Below the pieces are notes generated by a model. The model worked only from the letters and a program-made list of their open reading frames with translations. It did not search any database and was not told the origin of the DNA. This document shows positions 1,972 through 13,134 of a stretch of 64,000 nt of DNA, piece by piece. The DNA comes from Streptomyces ambofaciens ATCC 23877. GTDB lineage: Bacteria; Actinomycetota; Actinomycetes; Streptomycetales; Streptomycetaceae. A program made the translations under genes and the position numbers. The stretch is taken from contig NZ_CP012382.1 of the NCBI RefSeq assembly GCF_001267885.1, forward strand, positions 558,001-622,000, written 5' to 3'. Numbering within the stretch: position 1 is the first letter of the stretch; the number at the start of each line of letters is the position of its first letter.

Positions 1972-4900
1972 TCAGCAATTCTCCGAGAAGCCGCAGCCGA
2001 CTGCCCAGACCAGTCCGGTCTGGGCTACGGCTAGGCCGACTCCACCGAGCACGGTCAAAGAGGCCCCGCCGGTAGGGATGGCGGCAGCGAGACCGATCAC
2101 TGCGATCGTGGTGTTGATCGTGTCTGCTACGGACCACAACCCCGTGGGGTCAGAGCTATTGATGGGGTCACCGGCGGCGTACAGGTAAGGGTTGGTCTCC
2201 TGTCCGCTGGGGTCGGGCTGGGTGAAGCGGCCGAGGGTGGGGTCGTAGTAGCGGTGGCCCATCTTGTACAGGCCGGTCGGGTCGGCATAGGCGCCCGCGT
2301 AGCGGTAGGGCTGGGGGACGGACTCCGTGGGTGTGGTGCGGGGGAGGCCGGTGGGGCCGTAGGTGTAGGTGTGGGTGCGCTTGCCGGTGCTGTCGGCGAG
2401 GCCGAGGACGTTGCCGGTGGCGTCGGTGAGGTAGTAGTAGGACTTCCCCCCAGTCGTCATGGAGTTCAGCGTGCCCGAAGGCTCGCGGATGAATCCGGTG
2501 TCGACACCGTTCGTGGTCGTGGACGCCAGGCCGAGGGCCGTGTGGTGGAACCACGTGTCGCCGAGCTTGGTGCGCTCCGCGTTGCTGGTGCCGGCGTGGA
2601 CCAGATCGTAGGTCTTGCCGCCGGTGGTGATGCCGGCCAGCTGGCTGTGGTCGGTCCAGGACTCGCCCGTGCGGGGGGTGGTGTCGGCGGCGGCGGTCTC
2701 GTTGCCGAGCTTGTCGTAGGACCAGCCGGTGGTGGAGCCGTTCTTGCCGGTCAGCTCGCTGGCGTCGTTGTAGGTGTAGGTGGTGGCGCCGGGGCAGGTG
2801 TTCTTGCTGCCATCGCGGCTGGTGAGGTTGCCGGCCTTGTCGAAGCAGTACAGCCACGACGCCTTCCGCGCGCCGGCGGAGTCGGCTTCCAGGGCGTAGG
2901 TGAGGCGGTCCTGGGAGTCGTAGGTGTAGGTGGTCTTGTACTGGGTGAGGTTGTCGGTGCGGGTGCGGATCTTGGTGGTGTCCTTGCCCGCGCTGGCGTA
3001 GCTGTAGGTGAGGTCGATGAAGGTCTGGGTGCCCGAGGTGGTCTTGATCTTCTCCGGGCGGCCGTTCTTGTCGATCGTCACCGTCTGGGTGGTGCCGCCG
3101 GGATAGACGGTCTTGGTGCGCTTGTCGTTGTTGTTGTAGTCGAAGTCGGTCTTCTTGCCGTCCGGCGCCGTCAGGTGATCGAGGCGGCCGGCCGCGTCCC
3201 AGGTGTAGTCCGTCTTCCCGGTCGGGTCGGTGTAGAAGTCGACATCCCCGCCCGGGGTGTAGGCCAGGACGGTCTGGGCGCCGTTTTGCAGGGTGCGGCG
3301 CTTCTCGCGGTTGAGCTTGTCGTACTCCCAGGTGGTGGTGCCGGAGGCGTCGGTGCGGGTGGTGACGTTGCCGTCACCGTCGTAGGTGTAGGTGACGGTG
3401 GAGTTGGTCGAGGAGACCTCGCGCACGCGGTCGCGGTTGTCGTACTCGTAGACGGTTTTGATGCCACGACCGTCGGTGACGGTCTCCACCCGGCCCAGCG
3501 CGTCGTAGGTGTAGGTCGTCTCCCCCAGCGGCGCCGGCGGCTTCACCTTCCACAGGTTGCCCCGGTCGTCGTAGGTGAAGGAGGTGACCTTGCCGCCCGC
3601 GTCCTTGGCGGTGCAGCGCTGGCCCTCGAAACCGCCGCACTTGGGGGTGGCTTCGTTGTAGGTGTACTCCCGGGTGCCGCCCGCGGTGCCCGACGTGGTC
3701 ACCGACATCGTGTTGCCGTTGGCGTCGTACTTGAAGGAGTCCTTGCGGCCGTCCGCGGTGGTGAAGTCGTTGGGCAGCTCGGTGCCCGCGATCGTCTGGT
3801 ACGCCGTCACGGAGGCTGTGGCGCCCATGGGCAGTTTCTGGGAGACGGGGTTGTTGCGGTTGTCCCAGCCGTAGGTGGTGGTGTTGCCGCCGGTGCCGTC
3901 CGTGCCGGTGCCCATCGCGTCGATCGCGGTCTGGGTGAGGTGGTTCTTGTACGTGGCGTGGCGTGAGTGGCCGAGGGGGTCGGTGACCTTGGTGACCTCA
4001 CCGTCCGCGTTGTGCGTGTAGATCGTCTCGTCGCCGTCCGGGTCCGTCACGGTCGTCGTGCCCGCGTCGGAGGGGGTGGCCGCGCTGTAGTCGTAGCGCC
4101 ACGTCGGGCCCGTGTGCCCGCCGGAGGCGGATTCCGTAGCGCGCTGCATGGACGTGACGCGGTTGTGACTGTCGTAGGTGAACAGGGTGACGGTGCCCTC
4201 GGGCGTGGTCACCTTCGTCACCCGGCGCGAGGCGTCGTACTCGTAGGCGGTGGCTTTGCCGGCGGTGTCGGTGACCTTGGCGAGGTTGCCCGCGCTGTCG
4301 AGGTCGAGGACGGCGGTGCGGCCGGTGTGGTCCTTGGCCTGCCACTGGTTCGGGTAGGTCTTGACCAGGTCGATCCATCGGCCGGAGCGGGTCTCGGTGA
4401 GCTTGAAGCCCTTGTGCTCACCGCCCTCGTCGTGCTGGTCGACGGTGATCGTGCCCTTGTTCTTGTCCGTGACCTTCGTCAGGGTGCCGTGCTCGCTGTA
4501 GGTGTCCTTGGTGCCGGACTTGCGGTCGGTGAGGGTGTAGGTGCCGTCCGCGTTCTTCTTCAGGTCCTTCGAGTAGCCGACCGGGGTGGTGTAGCCGCCG
4601 TCCGTCCGGGCAGTGAAGCGCAGCAGGTTGCCGGTGGCATCGAAGACCTCGACCTCGCCGTCGTTGATCTGCAGGTAGCGCTCGTATCCCTGCCACCAGT
4701 GCTGCGACACCTTCCCCCACGGGGCTTCGAGGGAGTTGTAGGTGCGGGTGAGCTGGAGTTTCTGGCCGACGCCGGCGATGTCGAAGTCGGTGGCGGCGAG
4801 CATCAGGTTGCCGTTGGAGATGTTCATGCGCGCGACGAGCGCGTCGTTGAGGCGGGTGTCGAGGATCTGGTGCCAGGGCACCTCGCCCTGGCCTTCGGGC

Positions 4901-5256
4901 AGGTAGTCGGACGCCGCGGCAGCGGTGGCCGCCGAGCGGGACGCCGAGTCCTTGGCCGGTGCCTCGCCCGTGGCACGGGCCTTCTGCGCTGCCCTCCAGG
5001 CTGCGACATCGGCCGGCGGTTTGGCTTCGGCCTCCGACTCCGGCGCCGTGATCGAGCCGGCCGGTGTCGCGGGCGCTTCCACCTTCGTCGGCTTCGTCCA
5101 CGGGCTCTCCGGCTGCGGTAGCTCGGGCTTCGGTGTCGCCGCCAGGCCGGGAGCCGCGGCGATCACCACGGCGGCCGTGGTGATCGCCGAGACGAGAGCG
5201 GTTCTGTGTGTTCTCCGGGCACGCCGAAACGGCGTGCTGTCGGCACGCGGGTGCAT
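1972..5256 (-). CDS. Secreted Rhs/YD-repeat protein with short hydrophobic C-terminal tip
   Basis: This protein has 1094 residues. A twin-Arg-rich, Ala-rich N-terminus looks like a Sec signal peptide (cleavage near residue 40), followed by a Pro/Ala linker. A DUF6531-like entry region lies at about 140-220 (DFDIAGVGQKLQLTRTYNS). Many YD/RHS repeats (TYTYD, YEYDxRDR) follow, then the RHS-associated core (RYAGAYADPTGLYKMGHRYYDP) ending in DPTGL. Only 54 residues follow DPTGL; this tip is Gly/Ala-rich and hydrophobic and ends GCGFSENC. Other polymorphic toxins carry larger enzymatic tips, so this one may act on membranes or may be a toxin-less variant. A GGGGGGAAG ribosome site precedes ATG 5256. 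Confidence 0.9.
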   Translation of the reverse strand: MHPRADSTPFRRARRTHRTALVSAITTAAVVIAAAPGLAATPKPELPQPESPWTKPTKVEAPATPAGSITAPESEAEAKPPADVAAWRAAQKARATGEAPAKDSASRSAATAAAASDYLPEGQGEVPWHQILDTRLNDALVARMNISNGNLMLAATDFDIAGVGQKLQLTRTYNSLEAPWGKVSQHWWQGYERYLQINDGEVEVFDATGNLLRFTARTDGGYTTPVGYSKDLKKNADGTYTLTDRKSGTKDTYSEHGTLTKVTDKNKGTITVDQHDEGGEHKGFKLTETRSGRWIDLVKTYPNQWQAKDHTGRTAVLDLDSAGNLAKVTDTAGKATAYEYDASRRVTKVTTPEGTVTLFTYDSHNRVTSMQRATESASGGHTGPTWRYDYSAATPSDAGTTTVTDPDGDETIYTHNADGEVTKVTDPLGHSRHATYKNHLTQTAIDAMGTGTDGTGGNTTTYGWDNRNNPVSQKLPMGATASVTAYQTIAGTELPNDFTTADGRKDSFKYDANGNTMSVTTSGTAGGTREYTYNEATPKCGGFEGQRCTAKDAGGKVTSFTYDDRGNLWKVKPPAPLGETTYTYDALGRVETVTDGRGIKTVYEYDNRDRVREVSSTNSTVTYTYDGDGNVTTRTDASGTTTWEYDKLNREKRRTLQNGAQTVLAYTPGGDVDFYTDPTGKTDYTWDAAGRLDHLTAPDGKKTDFDYNNNDKRTKTVYPGGTTQTVTIDKNGRPEKIKTTSGTQTFIDLTYSYASAGKDTTKIRTRTDNLTQYKTTYTYDSQDRLTYALEADSAGARKASWLYCFDKAGNLTSRDGSKNTCPGATTYTYNDASELTGKNGSTTGWSYDKLGNETAAADTTPRTGESWTDHSQLAGITTGGKTYDLVHAGTSNAERTKLGDTWFHHTALGLASTTTNGVDTGFIREPSGTLNSMTTGGKSYYYLTDATGNVLGLADSTGKRTHTYTYGPTGLPRTTPTESVPQPYRYAGAYADPTGLYKMGHRYYDPTLGRFTQPDPSGQETNPYLYAAGDPINSSDPTGLWSVADTINTTIAVIGLAAAIPTGGASLTVLGGVGLAVAQTGLVWAVGCGFSENC

Positions 5257-6838: not shown

Positions 6839-7679
6839 TCACTGCCGCCAGGGCCCGACAGCCTGGTCACTGGGCCGGCTCTTGGACAATCGGCGCAGGC
6901 AGATGACACAGCACGCAAGTTGCAGAAGCCCTAGATGCAAGTCGGAGCGACGCTCGTAGCGAGTTCGCAGCCGCTTGAACTGATGGAGCCAGCGAAAGTG
7001 CGCTCGACCACCCAGCGCGTCTTGCCCAGCCCTGAACCATGGGCGACGCCGCGTCGCGCTATGAAGGGCTTGATGCCGCGCTTCCACAGCAGACGACGGT
7101 ACTTGTCGAAGTCGTTGCCGCGGTCGGCAAACAACCGCTTGGGCTTGCTCCGAGGCCGGCCTCGCATTCCTCGTATGTGGGGGACAGCGTCGAGTAGAGG
7201 GAGCAACTGGGTGACATCGTGCCGATTCCCGCCGGTCAGCGAGACGACGAGCGGAGTGCCGCGGCGATCAACGAGCACATGGTGCTTGGAGCCCGGCCGA
7301 CCCCGGTCGACCGGCGACGGCCCAACATGGTCCCCCCTTTGAGAGCACGGACGTGTGATCCGTCCACGGAGCAGTCGTCCAGGTCCAACGAGCCCGCGCG
7401 GCGCAGTTCTGTGAGCAGGGCGGCGTGCAGACGTGGCCAGACGCCAGCCTCGGTCCAGTCCCTCAGCCGACGCCAGGCCGTCACTCCGGAACAACCCACC
7501 GTCTCCGCGGGGACATCGCGCCACGCGACACCAGTCCGCAGCACGTACATGACGCCGGCGAGAGCCGCCCGGTCGGAAACACGCAACCGCCCGGGACACC
7601 GTCGGCGCCGTTCGGGAGCGGGCGGCAACAGCGGGGCCACCCGCTCCCACAGGGCGTCAGGAACAAGATCAGCACGCAC
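6839..7679 (-). pseudogene. IS5-family transposase with a C-terminal 1-nt deletion
   Basis: Frame A starts at GTG 7679 (MRADLVPDALWERVAPLLPP) and reaches ALKGGTM near 7330. A -1 step at CTC AAA GGG GGG moves into frame B (VGPSPVDRGRPGSK), which carries the FADRGNDFDKY and WVVERTF motifs. Just after VVERTFA the frame breaks: one base is missing near 7002. The conserved tail WLHQFKRLRTRYERR continues in a third frame to a stop at 6839. The -1 step is normal for this IS group, but the second break should inactivate the enzyme. Confidence 0.8.
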
Positions 7680-7726
7680 GCGGCGACCTTGCCGCCCATG
7701 ATCACCGAGCGCAAGACCTGGGGCTC

Positions 7727-7748
7727 AACTCATTCTGAAACGAGCAGT
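7727..7748. repeat. Putative IS5-type element end
   Basis: This is the second copy of the CTCATTCTGAAA-centred motif found at 75-96, located about 48 bp upstream of the transposase start at 7679. No matching inverted copy was found at the other end of this element (6811-6838). Confidence 0.5.
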
Positions 7749-7755
7749 AAGTACC

Positions 7756-7854
7756 TCAGGCTTCGAAGCGGCGGCGGGAGATCTTGATGTGACCGAGGCG
7801 CCGGGTGGGCGTGTTGTCGGCCTTCGCCCAACCGAAGCCGAGCCTGACGCGGGT
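7756..7854 (-). pseudogene. C-terminal fragment of an unidentified gene
   Basis: A leftward frame ending at 7756 encodes about 32 residues, VRLGFGWAKADNTPTR then LGHIKISRRRFEA, with strong coding character but no start. It is cut at about 7855, where a rightward HAD-like fragment begins, and lies only 7 bp from an IS end. The tail LGHIKISRRR resembles the tail LGHVKIARRR of the short frame at 25551-25667. I do not recognise the family. Confidence 0.5.
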
Positions 7855-8056
7855 ATGCGAACCCGCACCCCAAAGGCCCTGACTGGTCGACGCTGCGGCC
7901 GCTTCACCTCCTGCCCGAGGCTCCGTCCTCGCGGGCCGGCGAGCGGGCCCGTGAGAACGCCGTGGCCGTAGGACTGCAGTGCGAGTTGGTCTGGGCCACT
8001 ACCTGGGAGGAGGAGGCGAACACCGACATAGCACCACGGCTCGGCCTGCCCCCGTT
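7851..8056 (+). pseudogene. HAD-like hypothetical gene, upstream half
   Basis: One frame reads GYANPHPKGPDWSTLRPLHL through to LVWATTWEEEANTDIAP and RLGLPPL, which resembles the LVWATTWExEAN region of actinobacterial HAD-like hypothetical proteins. The N-terminus with the DxDG motif is missing. At about 8056 the IS110 element begins, and the reading resumes at 9541 as PVLTCPE. The gene was therefore already truncated or was truncated later, and it is split by IS110. Confidence 0.65.
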
Positions 8057-8312
8057 ATCTTTTTCGCGGTCCTGCAAGAGGGCCGCTGGCCTCCGGGCCC
8101 GGCATGACTGTTGCCCCCTGTCGATGGGATGACCTGGGGGGTGGTGTCACCGGGTCCGAGGGGTGCCGTCGGAGACGCTGATCAGAGGTCCGACCACCGT
8201 CCGGCCGGGCGCAATGCCAGGCCGCTCGCGGGCGGCAGGTCTGCATAACGTGGATGCGCGAGAACGGCTCCCGACCTTGAGGCCGGCACGCATCGACACA
8301 TGTGGGGGCACG
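8057..8312 (+). ncRNA. IS110 left-end non-coding region, candidate bridge RNA
   Basis: IS110-group elements are known to express a structured guide (bridge) RNA from the non-coding end upstream of the transposase. This 256-bp region has the right place and size and contains GC-rich self-complementary stretches (GGCCGCTGGCCTCC; CCGTCCGGCCGGGCGC). The loops that would pair with donor and target were not resolved by eye. Confidence 0.35.
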
Positions 8313-9515
8313 GTGATCAGCATCGACGGGGTGGGCGTCTTCCTGGGCCTGGACGTCGGCAAGCAGACGCATCACGGCCACGGCCTGACCCCGGCCGGGA
8401 AGAAGGTGTTCGACAAGCAGCTGCCGAACAGCGAACCGAAGCTGCGGGCTGTCTTCGACAAGCTCACGGCCAAGTTCGGCACCGTCCTGGTGATCGTGGA
8501 CCAGCCCGCCTCCATCGGCGCCCTCCCACTGACCGTCGCCCGGGACGCCGGCTGCCAGGTCGCCTACCTGCCCGGACTGGCGATGCGCCGGATCGCCGAC
8601 CTCTACCCGGGCGAGGCCAAGACCGACGCGAAGGACGCCGCGGTCATTGCGGACGCTGCCCGCACCATGCCCCACACCCTGCGCACCCTCGACCTGACCG
8701 ATGAGGTCACCGCGGAGCTGACCATGCTGGTCGGCTTCGACCAGGACCTCGCAGGCGAGGCCAACCGCACCTCCAACCGCATCCGCGGCCTGCTCACCCA
8801 GTTCCACCCCAGCCTGGAGCGCGTCCTCGGCCCGCGCCTGGACCATCCGGCAGTGACCTGGCTCCTCGAGCGTTACGGATCCCCGCAAGCACTCCGCAAA
8901 GCGGGCCGCCGCAAGCTGGTCGAGGTCGTCCGCCCGAGAGCCCCGCGCATGGCCGAGCGGCTGGTCGACGACACCTTCACCGCACTCGACGAGCAGACCG
9001 TCGTCGTCCCGGGCACCGGCACCCTCGACGTGATCGTCCCGTCGCTGGCGAAGTCGCTGGCCGCCGTTCACGAACAACGCCGGGCCCTGGAAACGCGGAT
9101 TGAGGCACTGCTGGAGGCCCACCCTCTTTCCCAGGTCCTGACCTCGATGCCCGGCATCGGCGTCAGGACCGCCGCAGTCCTCCTGGCCACCGTCGGCGAC
9201 GGCAGCAGCTTTCCCACCGCCGCCCACCTGGCCTCCTACGCCGGCCTCGCCCCGGTAACCCGGCAGTCCGGCACGTCGATCCACGGCGAGCACGCCCCCA
9301 GAGGCGGCAACCGGCAGCTGAAACGAGCGATGTTCCTCTCCGCGTTCGCAGCCCTCCACGACCCCGCCTCCCGCACCTACTACGACCGCTGCCGAGCCCG
9401 CGGCAAAACCCACACCCAGGCCCTCCTCCGCCTCGCCCGCCATCGCATCAGCGTCCTGTTCGCCCTGCTCCGCGACGGAACCTTCTACGAGCCGAGGAGC
9501 CCTCGACTCGCTTGA
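8313..9515 (+). CDS. IS110-family transposase (DEDD recombinase)
   Basis: The protein has 400 residues, a typical length for the family. The start is GTG 8313, giving MISIDGVGVFLGLDVGKQ; an upstream in-frame extension to 8163 overlaps the non-coding end and is unlikely. The N-terminal RuvC-like DEDD domain shows LGLDVGK (first Asp), VDQPASIGALP, and DAKDAAVIADAART (last acidic pair). The C-terminal Tnp_20 domain shows SMPGIGVRTAAVLLATVGD and the LASYAGLAPVTRQSG region with the serine expected of this family. The frame is intact, so the element may be active. Confidence 0.92.
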   Translation: MISIDGVGVFLGLDVGKQTHHGHGLTPAGKKVFDKQLPNSEPKLRAVFDKLTAKFGTVLVIVDQPASIGALPLTVARDAGCQVAYLPGLAMRRIADLYPGEAKTDAKDAAVIADAARTMPHTLRTLDLTDEVTAELTMLVGFDQDLAGEANRTSNRIRGLLTQFHPSLERVLGPRLDHPAVTWLLERYGSPQALRKAGRRKLVEVVRPRAPRMAERLVDDTFTALDEQTVVVPGTGTLDVIVPSLAKSLAAVHEQRRALETRIEALLEAHPLSQVLTSMPGIGVRTAAVLLATVGDGSSFPTAAHLASYAGLAPVTRQSGTSIHGEHAPRGGNRQLKRAMFLSAFAALHDPASRTYYDRCRARGKTHTQALLRLARHRISVLFALLRDGTFYEPRSPRLA

Positions 9516-9540
9516 CGAAGGACATAGAGGCACCCCCCTG

Positions 9541-9650
9541 CCGGTCCTGACCTGCCCGGAGACCTCCGACGCGCATAAACGCGAGGACCAGTGGATCAGG
9601 CTCCACTGGAAGACTCGAACTCTGGTGGAATGGGCGGCTTACCGACCGGC
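9541..9650 (+). pseudogene. HAD-like hypothetical gene, downstream half
   Basis: Immediately right of IS110 the frame reads PVLTCPETSDAHKRED then QWIRLHWKTRTLVEWAA. This matches the segment that follows the LVWATTWE region in HAD-like hypothetical proteins. Joined to the half ending at 8056 it restores LPPL-PVLTCPE without a gap. After LVEWAAYRP (near 9645) the similarity stops; the expected WVDDE segment is absent, so the C-terminus was lost in a separate event. Confidence 0.6.
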
Positions 9651-9816
9651 GAGCTCACCGGGATGCGCTCAACCTGGGGCGATGCATCGTGGTCGGGTCA
9701 AGGATGGCCTGTTTCCTGTTCGGATGTCGGGCCGCAGGCAGGCACCCTGAGCCTCGCGGCCACCGGCGTCACGGCATGCCCGCATCGTGATGCCCCCGCT
9801 GCACACCGCGGACGGG

Positions 9817-10842
9817 CTACGTCATCAACTCGATGTGGGGATGCTCGGGCTCCGCCGGGCAGACGAACAGGTGCTGCCGGTAGCCGCTGCCTATCTGGAC
9901 CCCGGTCGCGTTGTAGCCGCGGTGGCCGGGGTACGGTCCAGCACCTGGATGGGGGTGCGGAGACCAGCTGTTGCCGGCGTCGTCCCCTGATCATGCCCAG
10001 GACCCTGCTCTTCTGGCGTTCGGCAGCCGCGGTCGCCGACATCCTCGACACGCCCCCCGAGCCGCCCGCAGTGCAGTTCGACGGCTATCTACCGGAACCG
10101 TGCGTGCTCGAACCGGAGCAGATCACCGAGTACCCCGACCATCTGGAGCTGAGCGAAGGACTGCGGGAGCAGCTCAAGCAGTGGAGTGTGCCGCAGGCGG
10201 CAGAGGAAGACATGGACCCGGACACGTACTACGACTGTGTGCTGTCCAACGCACCCGGCTGGAAGGTCGGCGGCTGGCCCGCTTGGGACTCCAACGACCC
10301 CAGCTCGCAGCCCTGCTCCGAGTGCGGCACCGGCATGGAGCTCCTGATGACCGTTGCCACGTTCGAGGAAGATGATCGAAGGGGCACCACAGAACCTGCA
10401 GCAGGTCCTTGCCCTCCGGCGGGCTCAGATCGGGCACATCCCGTACGTACAGCTGCGCGACGGGCAGCATCGCTATGGGGCCGTCGTACGCCTGGACCGC
10501 CAGCCTCACCGGATACGTCCGAGGGGGCCGGATCCGCTCGAGAGTCTCCCGTTCCTCCGGAGTCAGGTCCCGGCCGTGCGAGGCGGCGAAGATCCGTCGT
10601 TCCAGCCACAGATCCGCCGGGGACTGGGCTGAGTTGATGCCATCCACCACATGCGGCTCCTCGCAGTGCGGCCACGGCTCCTCAGCGGGCCACAGCAGCG
10701 GCCCGCCGATCGAGCTGTCGTGCCATGTCGGCGCCCCAGTGCGGGGGTGCAGGCGGGTCGCCGTGCGGGCCAGCGGAGCCAGTTGAGGAAAGACCGCGGC
10801 AACGTCGATGGGCCGTGGCGGAGTGACAGGAGTGACCTTCAT
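9817..10842 (-). pseudogene. DUF1963/YwqG-like gene disrupted by an internal inversion
   Basis: From ATG 10842 the leftward frame reads MKVTPVTPPRPIDVAA to LLQVLWCPFDH (157 codons, to 10372). The last 55 codons (DDAGNSWSPHPHPGAG to EHPHIELMT) lie at 9984-9820 on the same strand, with a TAG stop at 9819-9817. The missing middle sits between them on the opposite strand (9987-10371). Flipping that block restores one 341-codon frame: CPFDH-LIMPRTLLFW at one join and ATFEE-G-DDAGNSW at the other. LLQVLWCP and WKVGGWPAW are typical of DUF1963-like proteins. As it stands the product would be truncated and frameshifted. Confidence 0.8.
9987..10371 (+). other. Inverted 385-bp segment inside the DUF1963-like gene
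   Basis: Read rightward it encodes LIMPRTLLFWRSAAAVADIL through GWKVGGWPAW and CSECGTGMELLMTVATFEE (128 codons plus one base). It belongs between the two leftward parts of the flanking gene. Both breakpoints, chosen as the only positions that restore the frame, lie next to short inverted repeats: GATCAT at 9989-9994 and ATGATC at 10372-10377. Confidence 0.75.
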
Positions 10843-11097
10843 GGCCGCAATCTTGCCAATCGCCACTGCCAACGGCCCTCGTGGCCGCCCCAGAGTTCCG
10901 GCTCGGGCACCACCCGGGGTAGCGCTACCGCCGATCCGTTGCCATGCGCAATCCTCGATCAAGGGCTGCGGGCCACTCAAGGCCAACGCCTGCGCCGCTA
11001 CAACGCCTACACACACGAGGTGCGCGACCATGTGGCGAGTTCTCTACCAGGCAGGGAGCCGACTCGGCTATGCCGCCTCCCTGCGCTGTGACATATC

Positions 11098-12099
11098 TCA
11101 TGGGGTCTGTCCGGCCTCGTCGACGATGCCCGAGTCGATGAGGGCGACGGAGGTGACGGCGGTTCCGGCTCGGCCCCAGGCGTTGTCTTCCACGAGGACC
11201 GTGCGCTCACCCAGCAGCCGGGCCGTGCTCTTGTCGAAGATCCATTCCGTGCGTTCGCCGTCGTGGGTCCGGGCGACGGCGACCCCGTGCCGGCCCGCCG
11301 CGTCCACGGCGTCGGGGACGATGCCGACTCCGGGAATGAGCGCAGCGGCGCGGTAGAGAGCCGCAGTGGTCTTGGGGGGAGTCACCCCGTTGCGCAGCAG
11401 GTCGCCGATCGTGACGAAGGCTTCCTGGTCCGGTCCTGTCGTGGAGCCGGATCCGGCTCCGTGGTTCTTCTCGGCGTCGTCGCGGATCTGCTCGAGCAGG
11501 GCGTCAGGATCGGCCGGCAGGGCGGCGAGGAAGATGTAGGTCGGCGCGTTCAGGTTCCCTCCACCCGCAGTGCCCGGCAGCAGGCTGTCGCTGCCGCCCT
11601 TGCGCTGCATGGTCGGCTTGCTGCCGTCCACCGAGGTCCACCGCTCCATGCTCTCGTCCTCGCGCAGAAGCTCCATTTCGCCGGCTGTGGTCTCGGACAG
11701 CACCGACGTGTGACCCACCGTCTTGACGTAGGAGTACTGGCCGGCGCGCACCGTCGTCCGCGGTGTCGTCGCGGCGGCCAGGGCCGCTCTTTCCAGCAGC
11801 CGGACCGATGCTGCCGAGGCCGGTGGCACAGTACGCGCGGTGTCAGGAGATCCGGAACCGAGACTGAGGACGACGACGGCAGCTCCGGCAGCCACCGCTG
11901 TGCCCAGGAGCAGGCCCCAGCGAACTCTCGGCCGCGAGGCGAGGCGGGAAGGGCGGGATCGCGCGTGCCGGTCGACCTCGCTCAAGAAGTGTGCGCGGCG
12001 TGCTGCCACGCGTTCGGGTGCCGGGTCCGGGTAGGGCGCGGGAGGCAGCGTCCGGCTCGCCTGCTCACGCTCGACTTGTTCCCGCTGCTCCAGATTCAT
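11098..12099 (-). CDS. CU044_5270 family protein, likely anti-sigma partner
   Basis: The protein has 333 residues. The N-terminus is cytosolic and charged (MNLEQREQVEREQ to about 55). One transmembrane helix (WGLLLGTAVAAGAAVVVLSL, about 62-81) leads into a long extracytoplasmic domain. Layout and sequence resemble the actinobacterial CU044_5270 family, usually encoded beside an ECF sigma factor. Its start ATG overlaps the stop of the sigma gene by 4 nt (ATGA), so the pair is translationally coupled. The inferred role is membrane-bound control or sensing for that sigma factor. Confidence 0.8.
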   Translation of the reverse strand: MNLEQREQVEREQASRTLPPAPYPDPAPERVAARRAHFLSEVDRHARSRPSRLASRPRVRWGLLLGTAVAAGAAVVVLSLGSGSPDTARTVPPASAASVRLLERAALAAATTPRTTVRAGQYSYVKTVGHTSVLSETTAGEMELLREDESMERWTSVDGSKPTMQRKGGSDSLLPGTAGGGNLNAPTYIFLAALPADPDALLEQIRDDAEKNHGAGSGSTTGPDQEAFVTIGDLLRNGVTPPKTTAALYRAAALIPGVGIVPDAVDAAGRHGVAVARTHDGERTEWIFDKSTARLLGERTVLVEDNAWGRAGTAVTSVALIDSGIVDEAGQTP

Positions 12100-12761
12100 C
12101 GTGGTCTCCTTCGGTGGGCGTGCGGGCTGCGGTCACCCCGCTGTGCGATGTGTCCGCTGCCGGTCCGCGGTTCCGCACCGTCCGCATTCGGCACCGCCAG
12201 TTCCTCCTCGACGAGCCTGCGCAGTTTCCCTCTCGCCCGGGAAAGCCGGGAACGTACGGTGCCCACCGGAACACCCAGTGCCTCAGCGGCCGCCGCGTAC
12301 CCCAGGCCGGACCAGACGACCAGCGTGAAGACCTCGCGCTCGCCGCGCTTGAGACATTGCAGCGCTCTGGCAGCGGCGGCCAGCCGCTGAGCGTCGGCCA
12401 TCTGACCGACCACCTCGTCCGAAAAGTCCGGCGAAGCTTCCGGCGGCGGCAGACGGGTCATCGCCTCCCGGTGCCGGCGTGCCGCCCGGGCGGTATTGCG
12501 CATCACGTTCGTCGCGATGCCCAAGAGCCACGCCCGGACGCTTCTGACTTCCTCGCGCAGCTTGTCACGCAGCCGCCACGCCTCCAGGAAAGTGAGCGAC
12601 AGGACGTCCTCGGCCACGGCCCAGTCGCCCGTCGTCCGGATCGCGTGGGCGTAGACGACGCGCGCGTGCTCGTCGAAGATCTCGGCGAACGCCGCCCGAT
12701 CGCCGGACCGGACCCGTTCATGTAAGAGGAAGTCCACAGCAACAAGTGTCCGCACAGCCAC
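12096..12761 (-). CDS. ECF RNA polymerase sigma factor
   Basis: The protein has 221 residues. Region 2 (about 12-80) shows FAEIFDEHARVVYAHAIRTTG and the DVLSLTFLEAWR helix. Region 4 (about 130-185) shows RGEREVFTLVVWSGLGYAAAAEAL and GVPVGTVRSRLSRARGKLR, the -35-binding helix-turn-helix. A short Arg/His-rich tail follows. It lies first in a two-gene operon with the CU044_5270-like membrane protein, with a 4-nt overlap. This is the common arrangement for extracytoplasmic-function sigma factors held by a membrane partner. Confidence 0.92.
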   Translation of the reverse strand: MAVRTLVAVDFLLHERVRSGDRAAFAEIFDEHARVVYAHAIRTTGDWAVAEDVLSLTFLEAWRLRDKLREEVRSVRAWLLGIATNVMRNTARAARRHREAMTRLPPPEASPDFSDEVVGQMADAQRLAAAARALQCLKRGEREVFTLVVWSGLGYAAAAEALGVPVGTVRSRLSRARGKLRRLVEEELAVPNADGAEPRTGSGHIAQRGDRSPHAHRRRPR

Positions 12762-12933
12762 AACGGTTCCTCGCCCGGCAGGAGTCCCTCGACGAGCGGT
12801 GACCGCGGCCCCTCCGTCCGCTCACAGCCCGCGCCGTGCCCCCTCGGGGCTGCCGTCCTGTCCGGCGTGGGCCCGCGGGACCGTCGGTCAGCGCCCCCAC
12901 TGCGTCACGGCGCTGGGTGTGGGCGGCGCCCGG

Positions 12934-13134
12934 TCATTGCGGGCAGCCGCCGGCGCAGAGCAGACCGACGATCCCGCCGTCGCCGGCCGCCGCGGGGACG
13001 ACGTGGTGGGTGGTGGCCGCGGAACGCCCGCCGGTCTCCCAGGGCATGGAGGCCGCCACGGCCTGGGGGACGAGGGCGGAGAAGGCTGCGGTGGTCATGA
13101 AGACGGCTGCCACCACACCCTTGCACTGACGCAT
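12934..13134 (-). CDS. Small secreted peptide
   Basis: The peptide has 66 residues from ATG 13134, chosen because GGAGGAGTCCAG sits directly upstream. A signal peptide is clear (MRQCKGVVAAVFMTTAAFSALVPQAVA, cleavage near residue 27). The mature part is about 39 residues and ends GGIVGLLCAGGCPQ with two cysteines that could pair. I do not recognise a family. Small exported peptides of this kind are common in Streptomyces; their roles are mostly unknown. Confidence 0.65.
   Translation of the reverse strand: MRQCKGVVAAVFMTTAAFSALVPQAVAASMPWETGGRSAATTHHVVPAAAGDGGIVGLLCAGGCPQ

Follow-up and report, generated by a model that had tools for sequence, protein, structure and literature searches.

The stretch of DNA analysed here, 64,000 nucleotides long and called the window below, comprises positions 558001-622000 of contig C1 of Streptomyces ambofaciens ATCC 23877 (C1:558001-622000), whose 8.39-Mb genome is assembled in two contigs. 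On the minus strand of the window, at 10842..9817, lies a YwqG/DUF1963-like gene of 341 codons in which the segment 9987-10371 is inverted. The N-part of the gene (10372..10842, minus strand) comprises codons 1-157, ends in ...LWCPFDH and shares 88-97% protein identity with 12 orthologues (L009-L020), as also located by blastn. The C-part (9817..9986, minus strand), which runs from DDAGNSW to ELMT and the stop codon, lies on the same strand as the N-part and has 93-98% DNA identity to these 12 orthologues by blastn. Between them, the middle of about 128 codons (LIMPRT...ATFEE; 9987..10371), which carries the GGWP motif and a CxxC, is on the plus strand, opposite to the N-part. From the native start, the present frame (10174..10842, minus strand) encodes 222 residues, of which 157 are native and 65 come from the inverted middle; in the list of open reading frames, the open frame containing this start runs 10174..11031 and opens upstream at 11031. 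Intact close orthologues have 341 codons, and translation of the window with 9987-10371 flipped likewise gives 341 codons without a stop. The N-part and C-part are otherwise open and free of further damage.

The first-pass annotation had called the gene DUF1963-like, and that label holds, although two intact orthologues reach only 14.9 and 14.2 bits against Pfam DUF1963, below the gathering cut-off of 23; because of this score we use no stronger label than YwqG-like. The TYPP superfamily is described as uniting YwqG/DUF1963, TSR4 and PDCD2 (PMC4275035), and with the family as presented in the consulted part of that work the gene shares a GGxP-type motif (GGWP) and one invariant CxxC. Among 48 aligned relatives G252, G253 and W254 are invariant and the next position is mostly Pro; Q130 and Q149 are invariant as well and are candidates for the conserved pocket-base Q of TYPP proteins. 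The best match at a second look was B. subtilis YwqG (1PV5), which has 261 residues, unlike the 341 of the window gene product. Foldseek gave no match at E<=0.001, with 1PV5 absent among the 27 matches listed, a sequence-profile search against solved structures yielded two irrelevant matches (E 0.65 and E 3.5), and NCBIfam returned none. Judged from its sequence, the gene would be YwqG/DUF1963-like and TYPP-like.

An IS110-family element (8049..9538, plus strand), delimited by Pfam, by own-genome copies and by an empty site in L041, carries an ORF at 8163-9515 with DEDD and Transposase_20 domains. Its ends are ambiguous, lying within C-runs, and it is 450 bp from the inversion. Counting that of the window, the genome contains four near-identical copies (G000:C1, L051-L055), with both ends in C-runs, as well as an additional partial copy, its right end also in a C-run, and a 71% relative. 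The window's copy seems to interrupt another gene; window positions 7974-8056 and 9539-9640 are contiguous in L041 at about 7530-7720. An IS5-like transposase lies in two overlapping frames at 6931-7679, the first of them with a Pfam match to PF13340, and Pfam also places a large RHS-repeat protein with DUF6531 at 1972-5256 (minus strand). An Rfam search of window positions 7000-13000 gave one match, below its gathering score, and a tRNA search of the window gave 0.

Genome comparisons place the gene in a conserved block (9640..10943, minus strand) with flanks that are mostly unrelated across many genomes. When 13 genomes were compared pairwise, every pair had in common a block that encloses the gene, measures about 1.07-1.44 kb and is 82-97% identical; a few pairs, though not most, have some additional flank in common. 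Relatives above 90% identity include Actinomadura kijaniata. The gene travels within this block of about 1.1-1.4 kb in many Streptomyces and in Actinomadura kijaniata (L038-L050, L063-L105); several copies of the block end near one 3' point (GGTCGGTAAAG), and some adjoin mutually similar flanks. Three plasmid records match the window's DNA, all of them from Streptomyces, and the intact protein has no match in phage records. The same genome contains two further homologues with 65-66% identity over the N-part and open frames of 392 and 409 codons, one of which was read as a 347-codon gene. L124 (4767-6260 and 7137-8180, both minus strand) holds an open paralogue of 347 codons and, close to it, a large serine recombinase, the two being separated by a ligase-like frame.

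When the three gene pieces were aligned by blastn to the fetched relatives, the N-part and C-part were collinear and 9987-10371 matched the opposite strand. Among the first 13 orthologues fetched, which are the closest, 12 (L009-L015, L017-L021) keep the distance of 385 bp to the base at each junction, and in the remaining one, L016, the middle is one base shorter internally. Orientation was scored by tblastn with the N, middle and C parts of an intact orthologue on L008-L050 and L063-L113, and among these 94 loci the N-part and middle lie on the same strand in 91 and on opposite strands in 1, the window's own, with the middle absent in 2. Many loci had been fetched twice, and the 93 non-window loci represent 68 distinct sequences, of which 66 are collinear, 2 are without the middle and 0 are inverted; the loci compared are without same-species strains, and the collection may omit records very near the window's genome. 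An N-part match was present in 233 of the 392 genus genomes, and the loci fetched on that basis were the best 30. At the right junction, a 21-base pattern allowing up to 2 mismatches was found in 4 of the 392 genus genomes, exactly matched solely in the window's own; the three other genomes have 2 mismatches each, and none of their matches lies at the N-part homologues listed (one of the three matches in G376 falls outside that list). The inverted junction is also absent from the six truncated homologues read, out of 120 retrieved proteins. Two distant relatives, L029 (G159) and L112 (Streptomyces sp. CBMA152), likewise break off at CPFD(H) or directly behind it, and no remainder of the gene is recognisable within the fetched stretch; the proximity of this break site to the inversion breakpoint is perhaps a coincidence.

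The strand comparison, together with the single open 341-codon frame obtained after the flip, bears out the proposal of the first-pass annotation that the gene is broken by an internal inversion whose reversal restores the frame. Two observations had been named that would speak against it, homologues with the same strand arrangement and a failure of the flipped product to align end to end with the family; no distinct homologous locus has the arrangement, and the alignment likewise left the inversion standing. The flip had further been described as joining CPFDH to LIMPRT and ATFEE to DDAGNSW. The frame is indeed restored, but the second junction reads ATFEE-G-DDAGNSW, with a glycine codon spanning it.

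The breakpoints were resolved by junction comparison and enumeration. At the right breakpoint (site 1, 10370..10377) GATCAT stands beside the crossover dinucleotide, and the left breakpoint (site 2, 9987..9994) is joined to the other half of a former direct repeat, GATCAT-CC-GATCAT. Site 1 reads GAYCAY-CC-GATCATG in 34 distinct close orthologues, which derive from 40 loci, include three with frameshifts of their own (L048, L092, L105) and exclude longer relatives such as L050. Where both halves are GATCAT, site 1 of the orthologues holds a direct repeat, with copies 2 bp apart, at one breakpoint. The 6-bp inverted repeats previously noted at the inversion ends are instead the split halves of this direct repeat, which relatives carry at a single breakpoint. 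A breakpoint inside a direct repeat automatically turns the two halves into inverted repeats, and by the orthologue sequences the inversion would have cut between the halves and moved one copy to the far end, making the apparent inverted repeats. The end-to-end inverted identity of the ends of 9987-10371 is 2 bp. On translation, a flip across the 6-bp copies (9989-9994 and 10372-10377) puts the middle out of frame and introduces a stop; of the sequences that the two ends share, only the 2-bp CT/AG brings back the frame when exchanged.

This crossover dinucleotide is CC in 34/34 distinct close orthologues and CT in the window read as flipped. The earlier statement that reversal involves no lost base therefore stands for the total length, but not for these two bases. 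Codon 158 of the flipped window is Leu instead of Pro; among 120 homologues (retrieved out of 2050 matched), a CPFDHP-type motif is present in 117 and lacking in 3, and position 158 is Pro in 113 and Leu in 0. With the orthologues' state taken as ancestral, enumeration of break models starting from that state left two that fit, in which either 1 base is lost and 1 duplicated, or 2 are lost and 2 duplicated, with the losses at site 1, the duplications at site 2 and the net length unchanged. By simple arithmetic, the chance that an accidental private change falls on those two bases is about 2% (11 changes in 1026 sites), which is suggestive, not proof, and the change from CC to CT probably belongs to the inversion event itself; a re-flip would for that reason probably not return the ancestral gene. 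Alternatively, the T could have arisen earlier by ordinary substitution, and the inversion itself could have been clean, using 2 bp of microhomology.

The 11 private changes of the window gene comprise 4 silent and 7 replacing ones, compared with 134 silent and 135 replacing in 31 orthologues (three frameshifted ones were removed before counting), which gives no signal of relaxed selection (Fisher p 0.54). Since these changes are like those of the 31 orthologues and the fragments are otherwise open, decay after the inversion is not demonstrated. The broken gene looks young and is probably a pseudogene that has lost its function. Given the two further homologues in the same genome, loss of this copy would probably be of little consequence.

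The inversion is ordinary in kind, real and precisely bounded. We consider it very likely that one illegitimate event, which inverted about 385 bp and most likely proceeded by end joining, made a young pseudogene in a probable chromosome arm. The gene lies at 568 kb of the 8.30-Mb contig, about 0.57 Mb from the contig end, which makes an arm location probable, and the arms of Streptomyces chromosomes are reported as their rearrangement-prone, plastic part (PMC8627663). Two double-strand breaks close together would have released the gene's middle, which would then have been rejoined in reverse by end joining, in all likelihood the Ku-dependent non-homologous pathway (NHEJ). One break would have lost one or two bases, and the other would have gained one or two by fill-in. 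The product would be a pseudogene encoding 157 native and 65 foreign residues. Joints with little homology are what end joining is expected to leave, and here they have 0-1 nt of homology, 1-2 nt lost and 1-2 nt duplicated; the window's genome also has three matches to PF02735 (Ku) above cut-off. The scar of a replicative template switch would look much the same, and on present evidence the two mechanisms are indistinguishable.

The first-pass annotation had left the choice between a one-time rearrangement and an ON/OFF switch, and the former is now favoured. For a reversible switch, that is, an intragenic inverton in which a recombinase flips 9987-10371 and the uninverted state makes the protein, one can cite that the flip gives an exact 341-codon frame and that neither fragment is damaged further. 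Such a switch is nevertheless most improbable, given that the ends are identical over 2 bp only, that 0/68 distinct homologous loci are inverted, that a re-flip yields Leu158, which occurs in 0/117 motif-bearing homologues, and that the crossover carries a scar. Switching through the 6-bp repeats, which now appear as a by-product of the inversion, was tried as a candidate and rejected, as recombination between them gives a frameshift and a stop and does not restore the frame; with 2-bp shared ends, there are no inverted repeats that toggle the frame. Nor does a dedicated recombinase lie nearby, as judged by the two families searched: Resolvase (PF00239) and Phage_integrase (PF00589) have no match within C1:558001-622000, with 3 and 7 matches, respectively, elsewhere in the genome (one of the 7 under cut-off). 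The IS110 recombinase is present in the window and falls outside that search, and a recombinase encoded elsewhere might act on the segment. An equally slight chance attaches to the arrangement being an assembly or chimeric-read artefact, with an intact gene in the cells. It is known from the assembly of one genome only, without raw reads, but that assembly consists of two contigs with a completeness of 100, shared ends of 2 bp should be too little to confuse an assembly graph, and the base change in the scar goes beyond what mis-orientation alone would make.

Recombinases acting at the dinucleotide itself also have to be considered. It is quite unlikely that the inversion was made, and would hence be reversible, by a conservative recombinase exchanging a two-base CT core, for example a multi-copy IS110 element acting off-target; if true, the locus would be a case from nature in which an IS inverted part of a gene without the help of inverted repeats. 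That the nearby IS110-family recombinase, or a relative acting in trans, inverted the DNA by bridge-RNA-guided exchange at the CT dinucleotide is very unlikely. CT does stand between the exchanged arms at both junctions, the family member IS621 uses CT as its core and is able to invert DNA according to the consulted part of PMC11208160, and four near-identical copies suggest recent activity. Against this, site 1 reads CC rather than CT in the relatives, and a CT core cannot be assigned to the element because its full copies sit in C-runs. In a rough comparison of the breakpoints with the donor junction and insertion target, for which the ends of the element were used and the target before insertion was guessed on the assumption of a single C-run length, the best agreement was 8 or 9 of 14 positions, which about 62% of random 30-mers reach. 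Off-target IS110 exchange is thus unsupported, with no breakpoint resemblance above background. The suggestion that the rearrangement is tied to nearby IS elements is accurate as to proximity, but the breakpoints bear no recognisable IS110 trace and a causal role is not supported.

The locus provides a clean case from nature in which a small inversion disrupts a gene without changing its length. It also calls for caution, given that neither a frame restored by flipping nor the presence of short inverted repeats at both ends establishes a switch. Were a two-base recombinase exchange to be shown here, it would indicate off-target IS110 rearrangements in nature.

A titles-level search of the literature on intragenic inversions, microinversions and invertons, which may miss some work, found nothing on point for Streptomyces. 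Intragenic invertons and phase-variable inversions are described by Chanin et al. 2024, as cited in PMC11868660, and, so far as that citation presents them, they resemble the present case in that an inversion within a coding sequence separates an open from a broken frame. Unlike them, the window has no inverted repeats longer than 2 bp, no PF00239 or PF00589 recombinase and a scar at the crossover, and no inverted state occurs among the relatives examined. With IS110 bridge-RNA recombination, as set out in the consulted part of PMC11208160, the locus shares the CT dinucleotide at both junctions and an adjacent element, whereas neither breakpoint matches the element ends or insertion target above background. 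The parallel with NHEJ in S. ambofaciens, as covered by the consulted part of PMC5869714, lies in the scar. Where the break lay in the central chromosome, microhomology of 1-6 nt marked half of the scars there and 40% showed one added nucleotide or a fill-in of 1-4 nt; scar-forming repair was nearly abolished without KuA or LigC/D. Small microhomology or fill-in and a genus with several Ku proteins are common to both cases, and we count as a further likeness that nearby DNA pieces (42 and 83 bp) were inserted at some of those joints. After arm breaks, in contrast, the same study describes the chromosome structures of NHEJ mutants as no different from those of the wild type, and its text nowhere uses the term 'inversion'; the parallel is therefore limited to the scar and does not extend to the whole event. 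Its scars arose at I-SceI cuts engineered into the central chromosome and are exemplified, in the part consulted, by deletions or insertions, whereas in the window a natural 385-bp fragment has been reversed in place.
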